Part shown: in pieces, positions 27,154-39,196 of the stretch
How positions within the stretch are numbered: the stretch's first letter is position 1
Layout: every line of letters starts with the position of its first letter
Assembly (NCBI RefSeq): GCF_000021325.1
Contig: NC_011365.1
Coordinates: 3,128,001 to 3,192,000, forward strand
Length of the DNA: 64,000 nucleotides
From: Gluconacetobacter diazotrophicus PA1 5
Lineage (GTDB): Bacteria > Pseudomonadota > Alphaproteobacteria > Acetobacterales > Acetobacteraceae
Direction: 5' to 3'
The notes under the pieces: generated by a model
Databases searched by the model: none
Seen by the model: only the letters and a program-made list of their open reading frames with translations
What the model was told of the DNA's origin: nothing
Program-made: the position numbers and the translations under genes

Positions 27154-27370
27154 CGTGGTCCTGATGGCTGGTGCAAAAGCGGGAGGGTAGCTGTTATTCC
27201 CATGCCACCGTCACGTGTCCAGTCCGATGTGACTGATTGGCCGGCGAGATGGTCTGGAGTGGACTATCTGGTGTTTCGGGCCGCAATCAGTAAGCCGAGC
27301 AGGCGATCGACGCGGCGGCGAAGGATGGTCTTCCGTTGCGGTGATGCCATGTGTCGGAACGGGGGACTTC

Positions 27371-27748
27371 ATGCAACGGGATGACGGGCGGATCGCGCTG
27401 GACCTTGTGGAGGATGCGGCGTTTTCCCGGATGCCGGGCGACGGGGGGACGCTGGTGGTGCGCGTGGGGGCCGCCGAGGGGGCTGGGGACAATGGGGGGT
27501 GGCTGGACGTGGTCGGGGTGCCGGCCATCACGCCGTTCGCCCATGGCGCGGGCTGTGTCTGCTGTGCGCCGGATGGTGCGATTGCCGCCGTGCTGGCCGA
27601 CCTGTTTCGTGCGCGGGTGACCGGGCGGCGTCCCTGGTTCGACCGGGTGATGGTGGTGGTGCCGGCCGCGCTGCATGCGGGGATGCGGCAGGCGCTGGAG
27701 GGCAATAACGTGGTTGCGGCGCGTTATCGCCCCGTCTGGCGGCGTTAA
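27371..27748 (+). CDS. CobW/G3E-GTPase-like fragment without Walker A
   Basis: A 125-residue ORF with a good ribosome binding site (GGGGGACTTC-ATG). The segment AHGAGCVCCAPDGAIAAVLA, followed by FRARVTGRRPWFDRVMVVVP, aligns with the central part of COG0523/CobW metallochaperone GTPases: the GCxCC metal-binding motif, a helix, then the FDRVVIE strand. The N-terminal P-loop and the C-terminal domain are absent, and the acidic Glu of the FDRVVIE strand is replaced by hydrophobic residues. It is either a degenerate remnant or a stand-alone metal-binding mini-protein. It lies 60 bp before the type I secretion genes and is divergent from the cobalamin-dependent metH. Confidence 0.5.
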   Translation: MQRDDGRIALDLVEDAAFSRMPGDGGTLVVRVGAAEGAGDNGGWLDVVGVPAITPFAHGAGCVCCAPDGAIAAVLADLFRARVTGRRPWFDRVMVVVPAALHAGMRQALEGNNVVAARYRPVWRR

Positions 27749-27808: not shown

Positions 27809-30034
27809 GTGGCGCAGCCAGACCCTGTGGAAGACACGCGGCCGACCCCGACGACGATCTGCCTGCATGCGGCCGCGGCGGCGGCGCGCTATCACGGGCT
27901 GTCGGTCGATGTCCGCGATTTCGTGGCCGAGCCGGGCGAGGTCTCGCCTTCGCCGGCGGCGCTGGCGCGGTGGCTGAACGACCAGGGGGCGGTGGCGCGG
28001 GGCATGCGCCTGTCCTGGCGGGCGCTGGTGCGGGTGCGGAGTGCGCCGCCGGTGGTGCTGATGTTCCGCGACGGGTCGGCGGGACTGATGGTGGCGGGCG
28101 ATCCGGCGCGCGGCGTCGTGTGGCTGCGCGACCCGATGGGGGACGAGGGCACGCCCCCGGTGCCGCTGGACGAACTGCGCCTGTCGCAGGTCTGGACGGG
28201 CGACGTGCTGCTGGTCAAGCGCCGCCGCGACCAGTCCGAGGCCGACGCCCCCATCAATGCCGAATGGCTGGGCCGCATGGTCCTGCGCGAACGGCGCGCG
28301 CTGCGCGATATCCTGCTGGCCTCGATGGTGCTGAGCGTGCTGGCGATCTTCCCGCCGCTGATCGTCATGCAGGTGATCGACAAGGTGGTGAACTACCGGT
28401 CCATGTCCACCCTGGTTTCGATCACCGCGATCCTGGGCGTCATGAGCTTCTATGAAATCCTGCTGACCTATGCCCGGCGGGAACTGGCGCTGGTGGTCAC
28501 GACGCGGCTGGATACGCGGATTTCGCTGCTGGTGTTCGACCGCCTGCTGGCGCTGCCGCTGGAATTCTTCGAACGCCAGCAGGCGGGGCAGGTCATCGGC
28601 CGCGTATCCGCCATCTACCGGGTGCGGGACTTCATGACCGGCCGGCTGATGAACACGGTGCTGGACCTGTTCACCCTGGTCGTGGTGCTGCCGTTCCTGT
28701 TCTATTTCAGCGCCACCCTGGCGTGGATGACGCTGGCGGCGGCGGGGGCGATCGGGCTTGTGGTCGCCGGCTTCATGCTGCCCGTGGGGCGGCTGGTCGC
28801 GCGCAAGGTCCAGGCCGACACCGCGCGCGGGGCGGCGCTGTACGAAACCGTGGCCGGCATCCGCACCATCAAGACGCTGGCGCTGGAACGCACGCGGCGG
28901 GAATTGTGGGACGACCGGTCCGCCCAGTCGGCGCTGTGGGGGCTGGCGGCGGGGCGGATGGGCAACGTGGCCGCGACGGTCGCCCAGCCCTTCGAACTGT
29001 TCATCAATCGCGGCATCCTGCTGGTCGGCGCGTACCTGGTACTGACCAACCGGGGGGACATGGCCGGCGGCGCACTGATGGCGTTCATGATGCTGGGCGG
29101 CCGCGTCGCGGCCCCGCTGGTCGGGCTGGCGCGGCTGCTGGACGATGCCGGCGAGGTCCGCACCGCCCTGGCCGAAGCCGGAACGGTGCTGAACCAGCCG
29201 ACCGAGCGCCTGGCCATGACCACCGGCCTGCGGCCCCGCATTCGCGGTGCCCTGTCCTTCGCCGATGTCAGCTTCAGCTATCCCGGCGCCACGACGCGGG
29301 CGCTGGCCGATGTCAGTTTCGAGGTCCCGGCCGGCAGCATGCTGGGGCTGGTGGGGCGCAGCGGATCGGGCAAATCCACCATCACCCGCCTGCTGCAGGG
29401 CGTCAGCCGGTCCTATACCGGATACCTGAAGCTGGACGGAGTGGACCTGCGCGAGATCAACCTGGTGCATCTGCGCCGGTCGTTCGGCGTGGTGCTGCAG
29501 GACAATTTCCTGTTTCGCGGCACCGTGCGCGACAACATCACCGCCGGCCGGCCGGGCCTGACGCTGGACGATGTGGTGCGTGCCGCCCGGCTGGCGGGGG
29601 CCGAGGAATTCATCGAGCGCATGCCCGCCGGCTACGAGACCTGGATCGAGGAAGGATCGACCAACATCTCGGGCGGGCAGCGGCAGCGCCTGGCCATCGC
29701 GCGCGCGCTGATCTGCGACCCCAGGCTGCTGATCCTGGACGAGGCGACATCGGCCCTGGACCCGGAAAGCGAGGCCGTGGTCAACGCCAACCTGCAGCGC
29801 ATCGCGCGCGGGCGGACGATGGTGATCGTCTCGCACCGCCTGTCCTCGCTGGTGGACTGCGACCAGATCTGCGTCATGGACCAGGGACGGGTGGCCGATA
29901 TCGGGCCGCACGCGGCGCTGCTGGACCGCTGCGCGATCTATCGCACGCTATGGTTCCAGCAGAACCGGCACGAGGCCCGGGGCCGCGAGCCCGCCCATCC
30001 CGCCGCCATGCTGGCCGAGGGGCAGGAGGCATGA
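27809..30034 (+). CDS. Type I secretion system ABC transporter with C39-like domain
   Basis: A 741-residue inner-membrane exporter of the PrtD/LapB type. Residues 1-140 form a C39-peptidase-like domain whose helix reads TICLHAAAAAARYHGLSV; the usual DCGxxCL motif is not preserved, so it probably binds substrate without cleaving it. Membrane helices span about 160-440 (e.g. LASMVLSVLAIFPPLIVMQV). The ATPase has Walker A GRSGSGKST near 515, the Q-loop VVLQDNFLF, signature NISGGQRQR and Walker B LLILDEATSALD. GTG start with GTGAAGGAC upstream. The stop overlaps the HlyD gene start (ATGA), showing coupled translation. No TolC gene is present nearby. Confidence 0.93.
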   Translation: MAQPDPVEDTRPTPTTICLHAAAAAARYHGLSVDVRDFVAEPGEVSPSPAALARWLNDQGAVARGMRLSWRALVRVRSAPPVVLMFRDGSAGLMVAGDPARGVVWLRDPMGDEGTPPVPLDELRLSQVWTGDVLLVKRRRDQSEADAPINAEWLGRMVLRERRALRDILLASMVLSVLAIFPPLIVMQVIDKVVNYRSMSTLVSITAILGVMSFYEILLTYARRELALVVTTRLDTRISLLVFDRLLALPLEFFERQQAGQVIGRVSAIYRVRDFMTGRLMNTVLDLFTLVVVLPFLFYFSATLAWMTLAAAGAIGLVVAGFMLPVGRLVARKVQADTARGAALYETVAGIRTIKTLALERTRRELWDDRSAQSALWGLAAGRMGNVAATVAQPFELFINRGILLVGAYLVLTNRGDMAGGALMAFMMLGGRVAAPLVGLARLLDDAGEVRTALAEAGTVLNQPTERLAMTTGLRPRIRGALSFADVSFSYPGATTRALADVSFEVPAGSMLGLVGRSGSGKSTITRLLQGVSRSYTGYLKLDGVDLREINLVHLRRSFGVVLQDNFLFRGTVRDNITAGRPGLTLDDVVRAARLAGAEEFIERMPAGYETWIEEGSTNISGGQRQRLAIARALICDPRLLILDEATSALDPESEAVVNANLQRIARGRTMVIVSHRLSSLVDCDQICVMDQGRVADIGPHAALLDRCAIYRTLWFQQNRHEARGREPAHPAAMLAEGQEA

Positions 30035-31470
30035 GCGCCGGAATGCTACCGCCCGGCGAGGGCGGCGCGATCGAGGGCTACATCCTGCCGGCGGCGGAGG
30101 CGTCCACGGGCGACATGCCGCGCGCGCTGCTGGAATTCCATTCGCCCAGCGCGGCGCTGATCGACCTGCCGCCCAACCCCGCCGCGCTGTATATCACGTG
30201 GCTGATCTCGACCCTGGCGATCGCGGGCATCGTCGTGATGTCGGTCTGTCCGCTGGACCAGGTCGTGTCCGCGCAGGGGCGGCTGACTTCGACCGACACC
30301 ACGCTGGTGGTCCAGCCGCTGGAAACCGCGATCATCCGGTCGATCGACGTGCAGGAAGGGGATGTCGTCCACAGGGGCCAGGTGCTGGCCCACCTGGACC
30401 CCACCGTGACCGACGCGGATGTCGAGAACATGCGCCAGCAGCAGGCGGCCTATGCCGCCCAGGTCGCGCGCCTGACCGCCGAGGCCGAGGGGCGGGACTA
30501 TATCCCCGACCCTGCCGACCCGGCATCGGTGCAGGAGGCGGCGGCCTTCCAGCGTCGCCGCGCGGAATTCACCGCCAAGGTCGAGAATTTCGACAAGCAG
30601 GCCGCCGGCGCGCGCAGCGACATGCAGGGCAGCCTGGCGGATGCCGCGATGTATGGCGCCCGCGCCCGCGTGGCGGCGAACGTACATGCCATGCGCCTGC
30701 GCCTGCAGCGCGACCAGGTGGGCAGCCGCCTGTCCACCCTTTCGGCCCAGAACGACCTGATGGAGGTCGAGCGCGCGCAGATCGCGGCGCAGCAGGCCGC
30801 CGGCAGCGCCCGCGCGAAGCTGGAGGGCGTGACGGCCGCGCGCGACGGCTTCATCCAGAACTGGAAGGCCACGGTGTACCAGGACCTGGCCACGGCGCAG
30901 CACCGGCTGGCCGATGCCGGGGACGATTACCGCAAGGCGGGGCTGCGCCGCAGCCTGATCGTCATGCGCGCCGACCGCGATGCCGTGGTGCTGAACATCG
31001 CCAGCCTGTCGGTGGGGTCCGTCATGCAGTCGGGCAACCAGTTGATGACCCTGGTGCCGGTCGATGGCGGGCTGGAGGTCGAGACGGCGGTGCGGGGATC
31101 GGATGTCGGCTTCATCCGGCCGGGGGACCCGGTGCTGCTGAAATTCGCCACCTTCCCCTACACCCAGTATGGCGGGGCCGAGGGCACGGTCCGAATCATC
31201 AGCGCCGATTCCTTCGCCCCCGGCGATGGCGGGCATGCCGCCCCCGGCACCGGCGCGCAGGTGCCGCGCCCCGACGCGGGCGGGATGGAGGCCTATTATC
31301 GCGTGCGGGTGCGCGTCGACCGCTACACGCTGCACGGCGTGCCGTCCTTCTTCCACCCGCATCCCGGCATGCCGGTCGAAGCCGACATTCATGTCGGCCG
31401 GCGCACCATGATGCAGTACCTCCTGAATCGGCTGGTGCCGACGCTGACCGATGGCATGCGCGAACCATAG
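30031..31470 (+). CDS. HlyD/LapC-family membrane fusion protein of the type I secretion system
   Basis: A 479-residue periplasmic adaptor linking the ABC exporter to an outer-membrane channel. It has a short cytoplasmic N-terminus, one membrane segment (LYITWLISTLAIAGIVVMSV, residues about 51-70), the lipoyl/barrel-sandwich hybrid halves (VVQPLETAIIRSIDVQEGDV and SLIVMRADRDAVVLNIASLS), a long coiled coil (residues about 130-300) and the beta-barrel with the HlyD signature region VGFIRPGDPVLLKFATFPYT. The C-terminal LLNRLVPTLTDGMREP is the usual end of this family. It overlaps the ABC gene by 4 bp. Confidence 0.93.
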   Translation: MSAGMLPPGEGGAIEGYILPAAEASTGDMPRALLEFHSPSAALIDLPPNPAALYITWLISTLAIAGIVVMSVCPLDQVVSAQGRLTSTDTTLVVQPLETAIIRSIDVQEGDVVHRGQVLAHLDPTVTDADVENMRQQQAAYAAQVARLTAEAEGRDYIPDPADPASVQEAAAFQRRRAEFTAKVENFDKQAAGARSDMQGSLADAAMYGARARVAANVHAMRLRLQRDQVGSRLSTLSAQNDLMEVERAQIAAQQAAGSARAKLEGVTAARDGFIQNWKATVYQDLATAQHRLADAGDDYRKAGLRRSLIVMRADRDAVVLNIASLSVGSVMQSGNQLMTLVPVDGGLEVETAVRGSDVGFIRPGDPVLLKFATFPYTQYGGAEGTVRIISADSFAPGDGGHAAPGTGAQVPRPDAGGMEAYYRVRVRVDRYTLHGVPSFFHPHPGMPVEADIHVGRRTMMQYLLNRLVPTLTDGMREP

Positions 31471-31495
31471 TGCCCGTCCGGAGACGCGGCCTGGT

Positions 31496-31516
31496 GGCGA
31501 TCCGACGCGCGTTTCC
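31496..31516 (+). repeat. 21-bp core of dispersed repeat
   Basis: The 21 bases starting GGCGATCCGACGCGCGTTTC are identical to 55168-55188 and match 63677-63697 (reverse strand) with two differences. Here the core runs directly into a small palindrome (GTTTCCG-AA-CGGAAAC, 31511-31526) and a T-run about 20 bp further on, so this copy may contribute to transcription attenuation between the hlyD-like and Sel1 genes. Confidence 0.7.
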
Positions 31517-31569
31517 GAACGGAAACCCGTGTTCATGACTGGATTTTTTATAACTTTTGGTGGGTCCTG

Positions 31570-33351
31570 ATGCGGGTCTTGTCTGCTTTGGGGGCGCGGT
31601 TGTCCCTGCGGGGGCGGCTGGCGCATGGCGTGCGGCTGATCGAGGCGGGCGACGCGGTGGGGGGTGTCGCCCAACTGGGCATGGTGGCCGAGGCCGGGGT
31701 GGCGGAGGCCCAGTTTCGTGTCGGGCGGGCCTATCTGGAGGGGACCGGCGTGCCGCGCAGCCTGGTCGAGGGCGCGCGCTGGATGCGCCGCGCGGCCGAG
31801 GCCGGGTGGGTCGAGGCCCGGCTGGTGCTGGGGACGCTGTATCTGTTCGGCCTGCCGCGCGACGCGGCATCGGACCATGGCGTGCGGCTGGCGGCCGAGG
31901 CGCCGGGCGATCGCGTGCCCGACCCGGACGAGGCCGCGTACTGGACGCACCTGGCGGCCGAGGCGGGCTCCCCCGACGCGCAGGCGCTGTACGGCTACAT
32001 CCTGGCCGATGGCCCCGTCGGCCTGCGCGACCGGGTGGCGGCCGAGGGCTGGTTCGCCCGCGCCGCCGCCGCCGGCTGCGCGCAGGGTCATCTGGGGCTG
32101 GGCCTGACCTGGATGCGCGCGGCGCTGCGGCACTCGCCGGAGGCCGCGTCCTCGGGCGAGGCCGACCGTGCGCGCGCCGCCGGCGCGCTGCGCGTGGCCG
32201 CCGAGGCCGGGCTGGGCTCGGCGCAGTTCCTGCTGGGGGCGCTGACCGAGCAGGGCAGCGGCGTCGCCCGCGACGTGGCGGCGGCCACCGCGCTGTATGC
32301 CAGCGCCGCCCGGGCCGGGGTGTGCGCGGCGCAGGCGCGCTACGGCCTGGCGCTGCTGGAGGGCAGGGGCTGCGCGCGCGACGCCGTGCAGGGCGAAAGC
32401 TGGCTGCGCCGCGCGGCCCTGGCCGGCGACCGCGAGGCCGCGTCGCTGCTGGGCGACCTGTATGCAAGGGGCGGCGACCTGCCGCCGAACGACGTGGAAG
32501 CCGCGTCGTGGTACCACCGCGCGGCGGCGCTGGGCCATGCGGCGGCATGCCGGGCGCTGGGGCTGCTGCACCTGGCCGGGGGCGGCCTGCCGCGCGACGC
32601 GGCCGAGGCCGCGCGCTGCTTCCGGCAGGCCATGGCGCTGGGCGACGCCCGGGCGGGTGCCGATCTGTGCAACCTGCTGCTGGCCGACCCGACGCTGAGC
32701 GCCGCGATGTCGGACGACGAGCGGCGCGAGTTAGGCCGTTCCTTCGCCCGCGCGGCGCAGGAGGGGGATGCGGTCGCGGCGTTCAATTTCAGCATCTGCC
32801 TGGCGCAGGGGCTGGGGGTGGAGCGCGACGAAAACGCCGCCGCGTCGTGGATGAAGCGGGCGGCCGACGGAGTGGTGAACGCCCGGTACTGGTATGGCCG
32901 CATGCTGCTGGAGGGCCGGGGGCACGCGCCCGACCCGGTGGCCGGCCGTGCCTGGATCGCGCGGGCCGCCGAGGCCGGCATGGCCGAGGCGCAGGTGGCG
33001 CTGGCGCAATTGCTGCTGACCGGCAACGGCGGCGCCCGCGATCACGTCGGGGCGGCGGACTGGTATCGCCGGGCGGCGGAGCAGGGGCAGGTGGATGCCA
33101 TGTTCTCGCTGGGCGCGCTGCTGGGCGGGGGGCATGACATCCCGATGGACCGTGTCCAGGCCCAGCACTGGTTCCGCATGGCCGCCGAACGCGGCAACGC
33201 GCTGGGGCAGTTGATGCTGGGGCGCTATCTGCTGCGCGGGCTGGCCGGCACGATGGACGGCGCGCAGGCCCGGCACTGGCTGGACCGCGCCCGGGCGCAG
33301 GGCGTGGCGGACGCGGCGGCCGAACTGGCGCACATGGATGGGGCGGGCTGA
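31570..33351 (+). CDS. Sel1-repeat (tetratricopeptide-like) protein
   Basis: A 593-residue protein composed almost entirely of Sel1-like repeats of about 36 residues (roughly fifteen), each with the pattern A-x-x-x-L-G-x-x-Y/L-x-x-G-x-G-V-x-R-D. Clear units include AEAQFRVGRAYLEGTGVPRS, AQFLLGALTEQGSGVARD and AMFSLGALLGGGHDIPMD. No signal peptide or membrane helix is evident, so it is likely a cytosolic scaffold. It sits between the secretion pair and the glycosyltransferases; Sel1 proteins next to exopolysaccharide machinery in other bacteria (AlgK, ExoR types) serve as assembly scaffolds or regulators, which is the suggested role by context. Confidence 0.88.
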   Translation: MRVLSALGARLSLRGRLAHGVRLIEAGDAVGGVAQLGMVAEAGVAEAQFRVGRAYLEGTGVPRSLVEGARWMRRAAEAGWVEARLVLGTLYLFGLPRDAASDHGVRLAAEAPGDRVPDPDEAAYWTHLAAEAGSPDAQALYGYILADGPVGLRDRVAAEGWFARAAAAGCAQGHLGLGLTWMRAALRHSPEAASSGEADRARAAGALRVAAEAGLGSAQFLLGALTEQGSGVARDVAAATALYASAARAGVCAAQARYGLALLEGRGCARDAVQGESWLRRAALAGDREAASLLGDLYARGGDLPPNDVEAASWYHRAAALGHAAACRALGLLHLAGGGLPRDAAEAARCFRQAMALGDARAGADLCNLLLADPTLSAAMSDDERRELGRSFARAAQEGDAVAAFNFSICLAQGLGVERDENAAASWMKRAADGVVNARYWYGRMLLEGRGHAPDPVAGRAWIARAAEAGMAEAQVALAQLLLTGNGGARDHVGAADWYRRAAEQGQVDAMFSLGALLGGGHDIPMDRVQAQHWFRMAAERGNALGQLMLGRYLLRGLAGTMDGAQARHWLDRARAQGVADAAAELAHMDGAG

Positions 33352-33354
33352 GCG

Positions 33355-36300
33355 GTGGTGGGGCGGTTCCGGCCGCAGGGGGTGACGGGTGCCGATCGGG
33401 CCGCGTGGCAGGCGTGGGCCGATGCGCGTGCCCAGGCGGCCTTTCGCCGTGCGCGCCTGCTGGAGGATGCGGGCGACCCGGACGGGGCCTGGCGATGGTA
33501 CGAGCGGGCGAACCGCCTGGCTCCCGACAGCCCGAACGTGATGTTCCCGCTGGCGGTGGCGCGGCTGCGCGGCGGGGACACCGCCGGCAGCGTGCGTCTG
33601 CTGCGTGAACTGACCCGGCGTTTCGATTTCCCCGAGGGCTGGGCGGCCCTGTCCGGCGCCCTGCTGGCGGCGGGCGAGGACGCGGACGCCATCGCGGCGG
33701 CGCAGCACACCCTGTCCCGCCACGCGCCGCCGGCCGGCATGGATGCGCTGTTCGGGCGACTGGCGGCCCGGGCGGGCCGGCCCGGCTGGTGCGGCCTGTC
33801 GGCATCGGGCCGGCTGCATGGCGGTGGTGTCCGCGACCCCGATATATTCTTCGATGGGCAGCCGGTCCGATCGCGGGCCGGGGCGGACGGGCCGGTGCTG
33901 CCGCCCTGCTGGCGCCTGGCCCGGCAGGTCGAGGTGCTGGCGGGCGGCGTGCCGCTGCTGGGCAGCCCGCTGGACCCGGCGGCGGTGCAGCGGACCGAGG
34001 GATTCGTCGAATCCGGGCCACGGGGCCTGTCGGGCTGGCTCTGGCACCCGGCGGACCCGGACCATGTGCCCGAACTGCGCCTGCTGGACGGGCGGACCGG
34101 GCGCCTGCTGCTGCGCCAGGCGGTGCCCGAACCGGCGACCGAGGTCAGCAGTGCGGTGCCGCTGGCCCGGCCGCGCGGCTTTGCCATTCCGGCCGCCTGC
34201 CTGCCGGCCGGCCCGGTGCGCGTGCTGGGGTCCGACGGGCGCGACCTGCTGGGCAGCCCGCTGGCCACGGCCTGCGAACCGTGCGGGGGCGGCTGCCCGG
34301 GCGAAGCCGATTGCCCGAAACGCCTGCCTACCGGCCGGCCGCCCTGCCGCCCGCCGGATGCGCCGCCGGCCCGTGGACGCCCGGCGATCGTGATTCCGGT
34401 CCATGGCGACCGCGCGGCCACGCTGGCCTGCCTGGAATCGGTGCGCGACAGCGTGGGGCCGGACGTGCCGGTGGTCGTGGTCGATGACGCGACGCCGGTC
34501 GCGGCCCTGGCCGCCGACCTGGACCGGCTGGCGGCGGCGGGGACGATCCGGCTGGTCCGGCACGCGCGCACGCTGGGCTTCCCGGCCTCGGCCAATGACG
34601 GGATGCGCGCGATGGCGGGGCACGACGTCGTGCTGCTGAACAGCGATACGCTGGTGGCGGGCGGCTGGCTGGCGGAACTGGCCGACGTGGCCTATGGCGC
34701 GGCGGATATCGGCACCGTGACCCCGCTGTCGAACCAGGCCAGCATCTTCTCGTGGCCCGGACCGGACCGGGCGCCGGACGCGGAATTCTGCCCGGCGTTC
34801 GACCTGGCCCGGGTGCGGCACGTGATGGCGGCGGCGCGGGCGGCCAATCGCGGGGTGGCGGTCGATGTGCCGACCGGGCACGGATTCTGCCTGTTCATCC
34901 GCCATGACTGCCTGGATGCGTTCTGGCGGCTGCAGCCCGGCGCGCCGGATTCGGGCCCCTTGCGGGCCGACCTGTTCGCCCAGGGCTATGGCGAGGAAAA
35001 CGATTTCTGCCTGCGCGCCGCCGCCGGGGGGTGGCGGCATGTCGCCGCGCCCGGGGCGTTCGTCGGCCATGTGGGCGGGGCCTCGTTCGGTGCGGCGCGG
35101 CCGGACCTGCTGCGGCGGAACCTGGACATCGTGAACGCCCTGCACCCGGGCTATGACGCGCGGGTCGCCGCCCATGTCGCCGCCGACCCGCTGTTCGCGG
35201 CACGGCGGCGGCTGGACCTGGTGTGCTGGCGGCGCGGCGGGGCCGGGTGGGATGGGGCGGTGCTGCTGGTCACGCACGACCAGGGCGGCGGGGTGGAACG
35301 CGTGGTGCGCGCCCGCGCCGCCGCCTGGCGCGCACAGGGCGCGCGGCCGGTGGTGCTGCGCCCCGCCCCCGGCGGCTGTCGGCTGGAGGACGTGCCGGAC
35401 ACGGCGTCCGGGCCGTCCGCCGCGGCGTTCGCCAGCCCGCGATTCCGCCTGCCCGGGGAAGGGGACATGCTGCTGGCCGTGCTGCGCGCGTCGGGGGTCG
35501 ATTCGGTGGAATGGCATCATTCGCTGGGCCACGGGATCGATGTCCGCACGCTGGCCGCCTCGCTGGGCGTGCCGTACGAGGTGCATGTCCATGACTATGT
35601 GTGGTTCTGCCCCCGGGTGGCGCTGGTCGGGGCGTCGGGCCGCTATTGCGGCGAACCGGGACCGGCGGGATGCGCCGCCTGCCTCGCCCCCGGCGGCAGC
35701 CTGCTGGAGGACGGGGAGGGGACGATCCCCGATCGGCTGGCGCGCCACCTCGCGCGGTCCCGCGCGGACCTGCTGGGCGCGCGCGCCGTCATGGCGCCGT
35801 CGGATGACGCGGCCCGGCGCATCGGGCGGCATTTTCCCGAAATCGCGGTCCGGGTGACGCCGCTGGAGGACGACCGGCCCGGGATGGACCTGGCATCCTT
35901 CGTCCGGATCTATGGCGGGGTGGCTTGTGGCGGGGCGGCGCCGGCGGGACGCGCGCGGCCCGCCGGCCGGGTGCGCGTGGCGGTGCCCGGCGCGATCGGG
36001 GTCGAGAAGGGTTATGGCATCCTGCTGGAGGCCGCGCGGGACGCGGCGGCGCGGGACCTGAATCTGGAATTCGTGGTGGTGGGCCACACGCCCGACGACG
36101 ACGCGCTGATCGGCACCGGCCGGGTGTTCGTCACCGGCCCATACCGCGAATCCGATTCCGTCGCCCTGCTGGCGGCGCAGGGGGCGGACCTGGCGCTGCT
36201 GCCCTCGGTGTGGCCGGAGACCTGGTGTTTCGCGCTGGGGCTGGCGTGGCGGGCCGGCCTGCGGGCCGTGGTCTTCGACCTGGGGGCCATGGCCGAACGG

Positions 36301-36384
36301 GTGCGGCGCACGGGCCGGGGCCGGGTCCTGCCATTGGGTATGCCGATTCACGAATTGAATACGTTTTTGCTCTCCTATGCCTGA
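33355..36384 (+). CDS. Three-module glycosyltransferase: TPR + GT2 + GT4
   Basis: A 1009-residue cytosolic protein. Residues about 20-130 form TPR-like helices (AAFRRARLLEDAGDPDGAWR, then YERANRLAPDSPNVMFPLAV). A linker with a Cys cluster (CEPCGGGCPGEADC) precedes a GT2 domain from about 340: AIVIPVHGDRAATLACLES, VVVVDDATP, VLLNSDTLVAGGWL (DXD-like) and GYGEENDFCLRAA. A GT4 domain fills the C-terminus: VHVHDYVWFCPRVAL, GVEKGYGILLEAARD and SVWPETWCFALGLAWRAGL. In that last block the second Glu of the EX7E motif is Leu. It starts 3 bp after the Sel1 gene. Two transferase domains imply sequential sugar additions. Confidence 0.88.
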   Translation: MVGRFRPQGVTGADRAAWQAWADARAQAAFRRARLLEDAGDPDGAWRWYERANRLAPDSPNVMFPLAVARLRGGDTAGSVRLLRELTRRFDFPEGWAALSGALLAAGEDADAIAAAQHTLSRHAPPAGMDALFGRLAARAGRPGWCGLSASGRLHGGGVRDPDIFFDGQPVRSRAGADGPVLPPCWRLARQVEVLAGGVPLLGSPLDPAAVQRTEGFVESGPRGLSGWLWHPADPDHVPELRLLDGRTGRLLLRQAVPEPATEVSSAVPLARPRGFAIPAACLPAGPVRVLGSDGRDLLGSPLATACEPCGGGCPGEADCPKRLPTGRPPCRPPDAPPARGRPAIVIPVHGDRAATLACLESVRDSVGPDVPVVVVDDATPVAALAADLDRLAAAGTIRLVRHARTLGFPASANDGMRAMAGHDVVLLNSDTLVAGGWLAELADVAYGAADIGTVTPLSNQASIFSWPGPDRAPDAEFCPAFDLARVRHVMAAARAANRGVAVDVPTGHGFCLFIRHDCLDAFWRLQPGAPDSGPLRADLFAQGYGEENDFCLRAAAGGWRHVAAPGAFVGHVGGASFGAARPDLLRRNLDIVNALHPGYDARVAAHVAADPLFAARRRLDLVCWRRGGAGWDGAVLLVTHDQGGGVERVVRARAAAWRAQGARPVVLRPAPGGCRLEDVPDTASGPSAAAFASPRFRLPGEGDMLLAVLRASGVDSVEWHHSLGHGIDVRTLAASLGVPYEVHVHDYVWFCPRVALVGASGRYCGEPGPAGCAACLAPGGSLLEDGEGTIPDRLARHLARSRADLLGARAVMAPSDDAARRIGRHFPEIAVRVTPLEDDRPGMDLASFVRIYGGVACGGAAPAGRARPAGRVRVAVPGAIGVEKGYGILLEAARDAAARDLNLEFVVVGHTPDDDALIGTGRVFVTGPYRESDSVALLAAQGADLALLPSVWPETWCFALGLAWRAGLRAVVFDLGAMAERVRRTGRGRVLPLGMPIHELNTFLLSYA

Positions 36385-36423
36385 AACGGGGCGTACGGGC
36401 CCACGGGGAAAAGGGAGAACCCG

Positions 36424-37548
36424 ATGCCGGACAGCATGACCGAAAGCCAGGGCCGGATCGTGGATCTGAAGGTCGCGGGCCACCTGATGACCCTGGACCC
36501 TGGGCTGTACTGCGTCTTCCACGCGCCGCAGCCCGATCCCGGCCCGGGATTCGACCGGGGGACGTTCCATCAGGGCGGCGCGGAGGACCTGCCGGGGGTG
36601 CGGATTTCGCGCGCGCCGGGGGCGGCGGGCGCCGGGGTGGCGATCGTGACCTTCGACGCCGATGGCTGGCTGGGCGCCGCGCGCAATGCGGCGCTGGTGC
36701 GCGTGCCGGCCAACGCGGCGCAGGTGCTGGTCACCTTCTACCAGGACCCGATCCTGGCGTCGGAGATCCCGCGCCTGAAGGTCGTGCGCCTGGCCGATAT
36801 GCCGGGGCCGACCCCGGTGCCGGTGCCGCAGGGAGTGGAATCCACGCCCGGCCTGGTCCCGACGCCCTCCGCACCCGCGCCGGCACAGCCCGGCGGGGGC
36901 ATCACGGCCCATATCCAGCGCCGGGGGGATGTGGTGTCCGCCATGGAGGAGTGGATGGGCGTTCCGGGCAGCAAGGCCTGGATCGAGGGGTTCGCCGTCG
37001 TGCCCACCCGCCTGATCGCGGCCGAGGACATCGAATACCAGGCGGTGCTGGGGCGCGGCTGGCTGTCGCCCTGGTCGGCGGGGGGCCAGTATTGCGGCAG
37101 CCGGGGCATGGCCCTGCCGATCCTGGGCCTGCGCGTGCGGTTGAAGCCCGAGGCCGCGCGCCGGTTTTCCTGCCGTGTCTCGGCCAGCTTCACCGACGGC
37201 ACGCGGGCGGGGCCGACCGGTGACGGCGCGGTGGTCGAGGCCGAGAGCCTGGCCCCGCTGGAGGCCTTTCGCATCGATATCGCGCCGCTGGACGTCGCCG
37301 AAACCCCGGACGCGGAGGAAGAGGCCCTGCTGGCGATCGTCTCCGCCCCCGATCCCGCCCCCGCCGTGCCGAAACCGGCGCGGACGCGGGCCCGCCGCGC
37401 GAAGGCCGAAGCCCCCCTGGCGGAAGCCCCGCCGATCGATCCGGTGCGCCCCGGCCGGGGCCGCAAGGCGCCGGGGTCGCGGGTGGAACTGCTGAAGGCG
37501 CGCAGGCAGAGGGCCGCGCGCCGGAAGACGTCGCGCGGAGGGTCGTAA
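36424..37548 (+). CDS. Hypothetical protein with ChW-like tryptophan repeat and basic tail
   Basis: A 374-residue protein with no signal peptide. Residues 1-130 form a beta-rich domain (VDLKVAGHLMTLDPGLYCVF ... VLVTFYQDPILASEIPRLKV). After a Pro-rich linker, residues about 185-245 contain DIEYQAVLGRGWLSPWSAGG then GSRGMALPILGLRVRLK, which follows the ChW pattern: I-x-Y, GW, W, G, G, then a hydrophobic I/L-x-L strand. The C-terminal 70 residues are Pro/Ala then Arg/Lys-rich (KARRQRAARRKTSRGGS), suited to binding nucleic acid or acidic polymer. It lies between two glycosyltransferases, 39 bp after the first; a glycan-binding or substrate role is inferred. Confidence 0.6.
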   Translation: MPDSMTESQGRIVDLKVAGHLMTLDPGLYCVFHAPQPDPGPGFDRGTFHQGGAEDLPGVRISRAPGAAGAGVAIVTFDADGWLGAARNAALVRVPANAAQVLVTFYQDPILASEIPRLKVVRLADMPGPTPVPVPQGVESTPGLVPTPSAPAPAQPGGGITAHIQRRGDVVSAMEEWMGVPGSKAWIEGFAVVPTRLIAAEDIEYQAVLGRGWLSPWSAGGQYCGSRGMALPILGLRVRLKPEAARRFSCRVSASFTDGTRAGPTGDGAVVEAESLAPLEAFRIDIAPLDVAETPDAEEEALLAIVSAPDPAPAVPKPARTRARRAKAEAPLAEAPPIDPVRPGRGRKAPGSRVELLKARRQRAARRKTSRGGS

Positions 37549-37571
37549 CCGGCGCGGCGCGGGATGGCGTT

Positions 37572-38849
37572 TTGAGATATCTGTTCGTCCACCAGCATTT
37601 TCCCGGTCAGTACCTGCACCTGCTGCGCCACCTGCGGCAGGACCCGGGCAACGAGATCGTCTTCATCAGCGAACCGAACGACAACCACCTGCCCGGGGTG
37701 CGGCGGGTGGCCTATCGCCCGCCGCGCGGCGGGGCCCCCGGAGTTCATCCGGCGGTACGGGATTTCGACCTGGCGATGCTGCGGGCCGAATCGGTCGCGC
37801 GGGCGGCGGCCAGCCTGCGCGACCTGGGCTATCGCCCCGACATCGTGATCGGCCACCACGGCTGGGGCGAATTGCTGAATATGGGGGACGTGTTCCCCGG
37901 GGTGCCGGTGCTGGGCTATTTCGAATTCTTCTACCATGCCGACGCGCTGGATGTGGGCTTCGACCCCGAATTCCCGTCGCCCCGCGGCAGCCTGCCGGTC
38001 ATTCGCGCCAGGAACGCCATCAACCTGCAGGCGCTGGCGGGCGGCGGCGATGGGACTGTCCAGGGCCAGACCCCCACCCGCTTTCAATGGATGACCTATC
38101 CCGCCTGGGCGCGCGGCGGGATCGAAATCCTGCCCGAGGGCGTGGACCTGGCCGCCTGCTCGCCCGATCCGGCAGCGTTCCGGCGGACGCTGCGGATCGG
38201 CGAGATCGCCATCGCGCCGCGCGACCGGCTGGTGACCTATGTCGCGCGTGACCTGGAACCCTATCGCGGCTTCCATGTCTTTATGCGCGCGCTGCCGCGC
38301 ATCCTGGCGGCGCGGCCGGACGTGCGGGTCGTGCTGGTGGGCGGCGACGGGGTCAGCTACGGCGCGCGCCTGCCGGCCGGATCGTGGCGGGCGCGGATGC
38401 TGGCCGAACTGACGGGGCGGATCGACCTTGACCGCGTCCATTTCCCGGGCAAGGTGGAGTACGACGTGTTCCGCGCCCTGCTGCGCCGGTCCGACGCGCA
38501 TGTCTACCTGACCTATCCGTTCGTGGCGTCCTGGTCGTTGCGCGAGGCCATGGCCATGGGATGCGCGATCGTCGGCAGCGATACGGCGCCGGTGCGCGAA
38601 TTCCTGTCCGACGGGCGGACGGGCCGCCTGGTGCCGTTCCTGGACCCGGACGGCATCGCGGCCGGGGTGCTGGAGGTGCTGGAGGACCGCGCGCTGGCCA
38701 CCCGCCTGCGCCGCGCCGCCCGCCGGCAGGCCGAACGGACACTGGATATGGGGGAGTACATGGCACGGTATCGGGACCTGATCGACCGGATGGTGCGCCA
38801 GGGGCGGCGGGGCCGCGCGTCCCTGCGGATCGCGGCGCGGTCGGCCTGA
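37572..38849 (+). CDS. GT4-family glycosyltransferase
   Basis: A 425-residue cytosolic retaining glycosyltransferase. The N-terminus RYLFVHQHFPGQYLHLLRHL is the family's characteristic opening and fixes the start at a TTG at 37572, since no ATG or GTG lies close. Other features: IVIGHHGWGELLNMGDVFPG, EILPEGVDLAACSPDP, RLVTYVARDLEPYRGFHVFM (start of the second Rossmann domain), VDLDRVHFPGKV-like region and YPFVASWSLREAMAMGCAIV with the donor-binding Glu. It is probably translated from the same transcript as the upstream genes; gap 23 bp. The sugar donor cannot be predicted. Confidence 0.9.
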   Translation: MRYLFVHQHFPGQYLHLLRHLRQDPGNEIVFISEPNDNHLPGVRRVAYRPPRGGAPGVHPAVRDFDLAMLRAESVARAAASLRDLGYRPDIVIGHHGWGELLNMGDVFPGVPVLGYFEFFYHADALDVGFDPEFPSPRGSLPVIRARNAINLQALAGGGDGTVQGQTPTRFQWMTYPAWARGGIEILPEGVDLAACSPDPAAFRRTLRIGEIAIAPRDRLVTYVARDLEPYRGFHVFMRALPRILAARPDVRVVLVGGDGVSYGARLPAGSWRARMLAELTGRIDLDRVHFPGKVEYDVFRALLRRSDAHVYLTYPFVASWSLREAMAMGCAIVGSDTAPVREFLSDGRTGRLVPFLDPDGIAAGVLEVLEDRALATRLRRAARRQAERTLDMGEYMARYRDLIDRMVRQGRRGRASLRIAARSA

Positions 38850-38857
38850 CGGTGCGG

Positions 38858-39196
38858 ATGCTGCTGGGGTCGTTCGCGGTCTATGCCGCCGCCGCGCTGT
38901 GCGAGATCGGCGGATGCTATGCCTGGTGGTGCTGGCGGCGGGCCGGGGCGGGGGCGTGGGTGCTGCTGCCGGGCATGGCCAGCCTGGCGCTGTTCGGCTG
39001 GCTGCTGACGCTGGTGGACAGCGACACGGCGGGCCGCACCTTCGCGGCCTATGGAGGGATCTATATCGTCGGCGCCATCGTCTGGCTGCGGCTGGTCGAA
39101 GGGCGCCCGGTCACGCCGCGCGACGCGGCCGGGGTCGCGATCTGCCTGGCGGGCGCCGCGATCATCCTGTCCGCCGGGCGCGGAGCGGAACGGTAG
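38858..39196 (+). CDS. ynfA: YnfA family small membrane protein (UPF0060)
   Basis: A 112-residue inner-membrane protein with four predicted helices: LLGSFAVYAAAALCEIGGCY, WVLLPGMASLALFGWLLTLV, YGGIYIVGAIVWLRLVEG and GVAICLAGAAIILSAG. The family signature AALCEIGGCYAWWCWRR and TFAAYGGIYI are intact. YnfA proteins are distant relatives of SMR transporters. The ATG lies 8 bp after the glycosyltransferase stop; a GTG two codons upstream is an alternative. It may simply ride at the end of the glycosylation operon. Confidence 0.9.
   Translation: MLLGSFAVYAAAALCEIGGCYAWWCWRRAGAGAWVLLPGMASLALFGWLLTLVDSDTAGRTFAAYGGIYIVGAIVWLRLVEGRPVTPRDAAGVAICLAGAAIILSAGRGAER

Follow-up and report, generated by a model that had tools for sequence, protein, structure and literature searches.

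Six co-directional genes of Gluconacetobacter diazotrophicus PA1 5, here called A to F, occupy positions 27809-38849 on the forward strand of a 64,000-nucleotide window, the whole stretch of DNA that was analysed (positions 3128001-3192000 of the larger of the genome's two contigs, of 3,887,492 and 27,455 bases). They encode a type I secretion exporter and its adaptor, a Sel1-repeat protein, two glycosyltransferases and a protein with a ChW-like stretch. The unit is family-wide and no peculiarity of this genome, because its order recurs across both sets of loci compared. Comparative evidence leads us to favour slightly the reading that the six genes form a type I secretion line dedicated to a candidate glycoprotein, S, encoded elsewhere (C1:1236630-1237973, minus strand, located with a profile of the S family).

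Gene A (27809-30034, forward strand, like all six) encodes an HlyB-like ATP-binding cassette (ABC) exporter with transmembrane and nucleotide-binding domains (PF00664 and PF00005), collinear with HlyB over its full length, N-terminal region included. All 38 aligned sequences, including that of the window, have intact Walker A, SGGQ and DEATS motifs (L057, L073 and L094 were excluded). A has no match to Peptidase_C39 at E<=0.1, and two stretches of its N-terminal region inspected in the 38 sequences contain no conserved Cys, the catalytic position being unplaced, with 0 matches in an alignment to a known C39 domain. The N-terminal region of HlyB binds rather than cleaves, and that of A probably does the same, because the inspected stretches lack a conserved Cys. 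Gene B (30031-31470) encodes an HlyD-type periplasmic adaptor, which scores 325 bits against TIGR01843 (cut-off 208.65). Gene C (31570-33351) has 10 stretches matching Sel1 in Pfam and may act as a scaffold; gene D (33355-36384) combines tetratricopeptide repeats (TPRs) with GT2 and GT4 domains; gene E (36424-37548) encodes the ChW-like protein; and gene F (37572-38849) encodes a GT4 enzyme of the PF12000 group, with PF12000 and GT1 matches. These Pfam and NCBIfam assignments agree with the gene identities given in an earlier reading made from the letters without database searches (hereafter the sequence-only reading), the ChW-like stretch of E falling just below threshold (21.8 bits against a cut-off of 22).

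Of 299 Acetobacteraceae genomes, 202 carry E, and these represent 75 of the 102 genera. Operon neighbourhoods were compared in 40 of the E-bearing genomes, hand-picked for long contigs and genus spread (27 genera, six neighbourhoods being from the genus of the window), with G007, G029, G031 and G116 added later. This comparison, which the sequence-only reading had called for, finds the A-B-C-D-E-F order and direction in 38 of the 40 (A of L073 is clipped by the fetched range); of the two exceptions, L057 ends at a contig edge, and L094 holds D-E-F with no A-C in the 6.5 kb upstream. Because no flank cluster beyond the six genes exceeds 17 of 40 neighbourhoods (these clusters are unannotated), the six-gene order is more than chance. 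In a second set that overlaps the first, the best 80 of 296 named loci, the full order is present in 74 and the remaining six are cut by contig ends; genera among the named loci include Acetobacter, Gluconobacter, Gluconacetobacter, Bombella, Commensalibacter, Saccharibacter, Neokomagataea and others. All six genes are also present in G029 and G116. The occurrence of a Sel1 and a ChW-like protein in one unit, earlier called unusual, is so relative to the other loci compared and is the rule within the family. Two further records are of note: L273 (G031:C272) carries A, B, C, E and F without D between C and E and has no S match either, and L176, filed as a Terriglobia metagenome-assembled genome, carries the full operon and is most likely a mis-binned Acetobacteraceae contig.

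The unit contains no TolC-family gene and no RTX substrate gene, as the sequence-only reading had stated. Both statements hold locally: the genome-wide search for unlinked TolC and repeat proteins that it recommended returns 43 OEP domain matches as well as S, an RTX-like protein that comparative evidence ties to the unit. Generic RTX proteins were rejected as substrates, since RTX matches at E<=0.01 are absent from 13 of 30 chosen E-bearing genomes. Many of the RTX matches in the other genomes are open reading frames (ORFs) of about 450-500 residues, and 14 of these form one family, S. The S profile was built from those 14 of 18 candidate ORFs; L234, L238, L239 and L240 were excluded as divergent or unrelated. 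S is rich in Ser, Thr and Gly, has RTX-like repeats over about 450 residues and shows no evident signal peptide by eye. Its members start with a MAIVTVVGASG-like sequence and share a conserved C-terminal end like ITFVGVTDLKASDFTLS. All 14 lack Cys, with 15-26% Ser plus Thr and 0.9-6.2% Lys plus Arg. An AlphaFold2 model of S is mostly beta, a beta-solenoid, with a predicted local distance difference test score (pLDDT) of 85.8 and a predicted template modelling score (pTM) of 0.82; in Foldseek, its eight top-ranked structures are RTX lipases and the CyaA RTX domain, and no match reaches E<=0.001.

At E<=1e-10 the S profile has matches in 158 of the 299 family genomes; among them are 10 of the 13 E-bearing genomes that are RTX-negative. 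At this threshold E and S occur together in 145 genomes, E alone in 57, S alone in 13 and neither in 84; by genus the figures are 60, 15, 4 and 23 of 102, and at E<=1e-25 they are 79, 123, 1 (G126) and 96 genomes, all counts ignoring kinship. A tie to the exporter comes from 14 of the 30 chosen genomes that have exactly one HlyD match (E<=1e-20). S is present in 11 of these 14, each of the 11 having its HlyD match some 6 kb upstream of E, the place expected of B. A further 13 of the 30 have a single HlyD match over the family cut-off; the genome of the window has three. In 14 of the 30 genomes, then, the unit holds the sole HlyD-type adaptor found at E<=1e-20.

Among 385 genomes of the class, the top S match from another family (G572:C78:8577-8960, 3e-24) falls at the same locus as the top non-family match of E. 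There, S, a fusion of D and E, a methyltransferase gene and F all run in one direction, with S the next gene upstream of the fusion at a gap of about 203 nt; its similarity to S is 35% over 363 residues and reaches near both C-termini, and the frame has GTG/TTG and no early ATG start. The next-best non-family matches, in five other genomes, range from 1e-15 to 8e-13. In G566, an RTX protein stands among A, B, C, D and F, and over its last 109 residues it is similar to S (35%, E 3e-12). Decay offers another line of evidence. In G126 (L271 and L272), A, B and C are in three pieces each, D is in two and missing after about residue 423, E was not found and F is in two pieces, while S, the glycosyltransferase gene that follows it and a DUF2142 gene are broken as well. 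By comparison, 17 of 20 other ORFs are in one piece (one partial), and the congener G046 has the operon and the S-locus genes whole. This co-decay is one event in one genome. Taken together, these associations suggest that S probably leaves the cell via A and B.

Whether S is glycosylated is a separate question. By homology, 20 of the 31 S loci have a tandem GT4-GT4 gene, about 900-1,060 residues long where complete, that adjoins S in the same orientation (12 of the first 12 and 8 of a further 19; L293, the same place as L225, was counted once). Pfam confirms the GT4 domains in five of the 20. At 8 of a set of 20 S loci, a GT4-GT2 fusion gene or its homologue lies upstream of S, divergent from the GT4-GT4 gene (L225:4089-6950; L278, L283, L286, L287, L291, L292 and L294). 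The 11 S loci lacking GT4-GT4 include those of reduced genomes (L279-L282, L295 and L296), whose genera keep D, E and F (L067, L068 and L075). We infer glycosylation of S because GT4-GT4 adjoins it, S is rich in Ser and Thr, and GT41-type genes stand beside two distant A-B-Sel1 loci; that D and F glycosylate S appears marginally more probable than the contrary. Export of a glycosylated surface protein, one of two suggestions in the sequence-only reading, is thereby the best-supported reading, with S as its named candidate in trans; the alternative offered with it, a glycan carrier, has lost ground.

E is most likely a partner domain of the transferase D, because the two are single ORFs in G572 (1324 residues) and G542 (at least 1195 residues), with E at the C-terminus of D. 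In both genomes a gene of about 200 residues follows (an S-adenosylmethionine methyltransferase in G572) and then F. Across the 385 genomes of the class, E has matches in seven: four in its own family, clear ones in G572 and G542 of other families, and a weak one in G566 that was discounted for internal stops, a 117-residue ORF there bearing no resemblance. With one ChW-like stretch under the gathering score, E falls outside the clostridial ChW repeat proteins of PF07538. AlphaFold2 predicts two beta-rich domains, beta-sandwiches at residues about 12-125 and 158-290, of which the second contains the ChW-like motif, and a disordered tail of Lys, Arg, Ala and Pro; mean pLDDT is 77.9 and pTM 0.46, with blocks above 90 pLDDT within both domains. 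Fold searches yielded no clear assignment. An alignment of 37 of 41 sequences (L059, L060, L065 and L080 excluded) has 40 invariant columns, 30 of them within the ChW-like half, and Cys at positions 30 and 224 is invariant; the tail varies among homologues.

The unit joins two separable modules that recur together, exporter-Sel1 (A-B-C) and D-E-F, because each is found without the other. D-E-F lacks an adjoining exporter in G572 (L187) and G026 (L094), so the situation that the sequence-only reading named as refuting its proposal, transferases conserved without the secretion genes, is seen in part. A class-wide search for A at E<=1e-150 supplied loci of other families, of which 13 (L212-L224) were compared besides L189. 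Each of the 13 has B after A. In five of them, L212 and L214-L217, B is in turn followed by Sel1, and the stretch covered, which for L212 reaches a contig edge, contains no D-E-F. In L189 (G566), A, B, RgpF, D, the RTX protein, a methyltransferase, F and Sel1 lie rearranged within one 15-kb stretch. Several of these loci have other neighbours: a TPR-GT41 gene resembling O-GlcNAc transferase stands beside HlyB-HlyD-Sel1 in L212 and L217, from other alphaproteobacterial families; two GH16 genes flank A-B-Sel1 in L216; a CBM60/beta-helix protein is encoded at that of L214; and L213 has a D-like gene with other GT2 genes at its exporter locus.

On the favoured reading, S would be synthesized in the cytoplasm without an evident signal peptide, where D and F would add sugars, joined by the GT4-GT4 and GT4-GT2 enzymes where these are encoded beside S. 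E could hold the acceptor or growing glycan for D, and C could tether the transferases or S to the exporter, although both roles are tentative. A and B, with one unlinked TolC-like protein, would then export S through its C-terminus, and S would fold outside the cell as a surface or matrix glycoprotein. If this is true, a conserved secretion line runs through much of the Acetobacteraceae, among them Acetobacter, Gluconobacter, Gluconacetobacter and Bombella, an orphan exporter gains a candidate substrate, the uncharacterized family E gains a function, and a cultivable model for the coupling of glycosylation to type I secretion becomes available.

A number of observations weigh against this reading. 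No RTX gene lies near the operon, and no S-like protein is encoded in the 40 operon neighbourhoods or the 13 other-family loci. S has no match in 57 of 202 E-bearing genomes and is present in 13 without E (E<=1e-10); G029 and G116, with the full operon, and G031, without D, all lack it. The weaker S matches may in many cases be other RTX proteins, because only 79 of the 202 persist at 1e-25. The best NCBIfam model for A, TIGR01846 (type_I_sec_HlyB), is matched at 529.3 bits, under its cut-off of 725.55. The 65-kb contig of G572 that carries S and D-E-F has no B and no full-length A, the best candidate being a nucleotide-binding domain match of 42%, and RTX proteins of five other genomes are as similar to S as the one in G566. 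In G126, 3 of the 20 other ORFs are also in several pieces, and sequencing error is possible. As regards glycosylation, neither S-locus transferase has a homologue in the stretches covered at 11 of the 31 S loci (that of L281 stops at a contig edge), and GT2 and GT4 enzymes are known more for glycan assembly than for placing the first sugar on proteins.

In the strongest rival, which we rate as somewhat unlikely, D-E-F and the transferases of the S locus would make a surface polysaccharide, and A and B would export unglycosylated S as a lectin of the matrix that binds it. GT2 and GT4 enzymes are commonly glycan builders, D-E-F sits among GT2, GT4 and RgpF genes in L187, and D and F lie near RgpF in L189; furthermore, the available part of PMC9298526 describes PrsDE of Rhizobium as an exporter of exopolysaccharide (EPS)-binding Rap proteins. 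This picture is, however, at odds with the lack of a match over the Pfam cut-off to polymerase, flippase or glycan-export families among the six proteins, with the limit of 17 of 40 neighbourhoods for any flank cluster, and with the GT41-type transferases beside two outside A-B-Sel1 loci. Alternatively, A and B might export a glycan or glycolipid made by D, E and F, S being a bystander. No substrate gene lies in the operon or is conserved near it, and the 13 RTX-negative genomes fit this idea; it is nevertheless improbable, given that S adjoins D-E-F in G572, an S-like protein stands among A, B, C, D and F in G566, A is collinear with HlyB throughout and the operon and S decay together in G126.

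Two other explanations fare worse. E alone in the unit is neither exporter, repeat scaffold nor transferase, and its variable tail and lack of an evident signal peptide might mark it as the exported glycosylated protein. E was rejected in this role owing to its fusion with D in two other-family genomes; its two invariant Cys also speak against it, Cys being unusual in type I secretion substrates, and we consider its export very improbable. Chance juxtaposition of a type I secretion system and unrelated glycosyltransferase genes could account for D-E-F without A-C in L094 and L187 and for the five loci with A-B-Sel1 and no D-E-F (L212, cut by a contig end, and L214-L217). The six-gene order, kept by 38 of the 40 neighbourhoods and 74 of the 80 named loci, and the presence of A, B, C, D and F together in rearranged form in G566, make such coincidence scarcely credible. 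A local RTX protein or giant adhesin in the flanks was likewise rejected, with no flank cluster widespread enough and no S-like protein there.

Each part of the unit is of a known kind. The accessory Sec system of streptococci serves one Ser-rich surface glycoprotein, its exporter being encoded together with accessory proteins and glycosyltransferases that act in the cytoplasm. The six genes may possibly be a Gram-negative counterpart of this pathway built on type I secretion, in which D and F, with E as lectin-like factor and C as scaffold, couple glycosylation of S, a coat or matrix protein so far undescribed, to export by A-B; we hold this broader view with less than even confidence. The proposed way of working resembles accessory Sec/serine-rich repeat protein export; the present unit is not a member, having an ABC/HlyD exporter in place of SecA2/SecY2 and an unlinked substrate gene. 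Likeness to HlyB/HlyD secretion lies in the HlyB-collinear ABC protein, the HlyD-family adaptor and a Cys-free, RTX-like candidate with a conserved C-terminus. Unlike that system, the unit has its candidate substrate in trans, no TolC gene, an A protein under the TIGR01846 cut-off, and genes for a Sel1 protein, two transferases and E as constant companions. With HMW1C/GT41 and FlmG the proposed mechanism shares the addition of sugars to a surface protein in the cytoplasm, ahead of export. Some of these cytoplasmic protein glycosyltransferases bear TPRs. D and F are GT2/GT4 enzymes, whereas GT41 (PF13844) has no Pfam match among the seven window proteins; GT41 genes stand beside two distant A-B-Sel1 loci.

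Closer in lineage, PrsDE of Rhizobium leguminosarum exports RTX proteins and a beta-helix protein besides the Rap proteins, according to the available part of PMC9298526. It is thus an alphaproteobacterial type I system for RTX, beta-helix and lectin substrates of a glycan matrix, much as the related A-B-Sel1 locus L216 is flanked by GH16 genes; that part of the source describes no operon-encoded transferases or ChW-like protein for PrsDE. The accessible sections of PMC5050591 describe Kozakia EPS clusters without naming the six-gene unit, and those of PMC11493185 mention an RTX-related plasmid protein in Sorlinia. Full-text searches of open-licence literature found no description of the six-gene combination or of the assignment of S.

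At the borders of the unit, the seven co-directional genes of the sequence-only reading reduce to six, their coordinates and direction being confirmed. The seventh, gene G (38852-39196, forward strand), encodes a small membrane protein of the YnfA/UPF0060 family; it was rejected as a member, since it is present in 2 of 40 neighbourhoods (tblastn E<=1e-6). Its start is closer to 38852/38858 than to the ORF start at 38561. Of the short gaps or ATGA overlaps described earlier, the gaps stand, at 99 (B/C), 3 (C/D), 39 (D/E) and 23 nt (E/F), and A/B is the one pair that overlaps, by ATGA. Just upstream of A, an ORF of 135 residues (27341-27748, forward strand) has no family match in the Pfam/NCBIfam scan; its homologue cluster is present in 14 of 40 neighbourhoods, and it is possibly accessory to the unit. 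An opposite-strand gene upstream of the locus resembles metH, as judged by eye.

The genome has two further type I loci with Sel1 genes. In L211 (C1:1597000-1616900), A is 72-73%, B 59% and C about 30% identical to the unit's proteins; an AcrB-type pump is encoded downstream and a TolC-like protein nearby, along with a weakly RTX-like protein of 357 residues. This protein and its 352-residue counterpart in L276 are 58% identical to each other and have no Pfam match; the comparison that gave this identity included S, to which neither is similar. That each of the two other systems has such a protein nearby counts in favour of assigning S to A and B. L276 (C2:4000-23900), on the 27-kb contig, has identities of 72% (A), 56% (B) and 29% (Sel1) and also carries a MobA/MobL relaxase gene.

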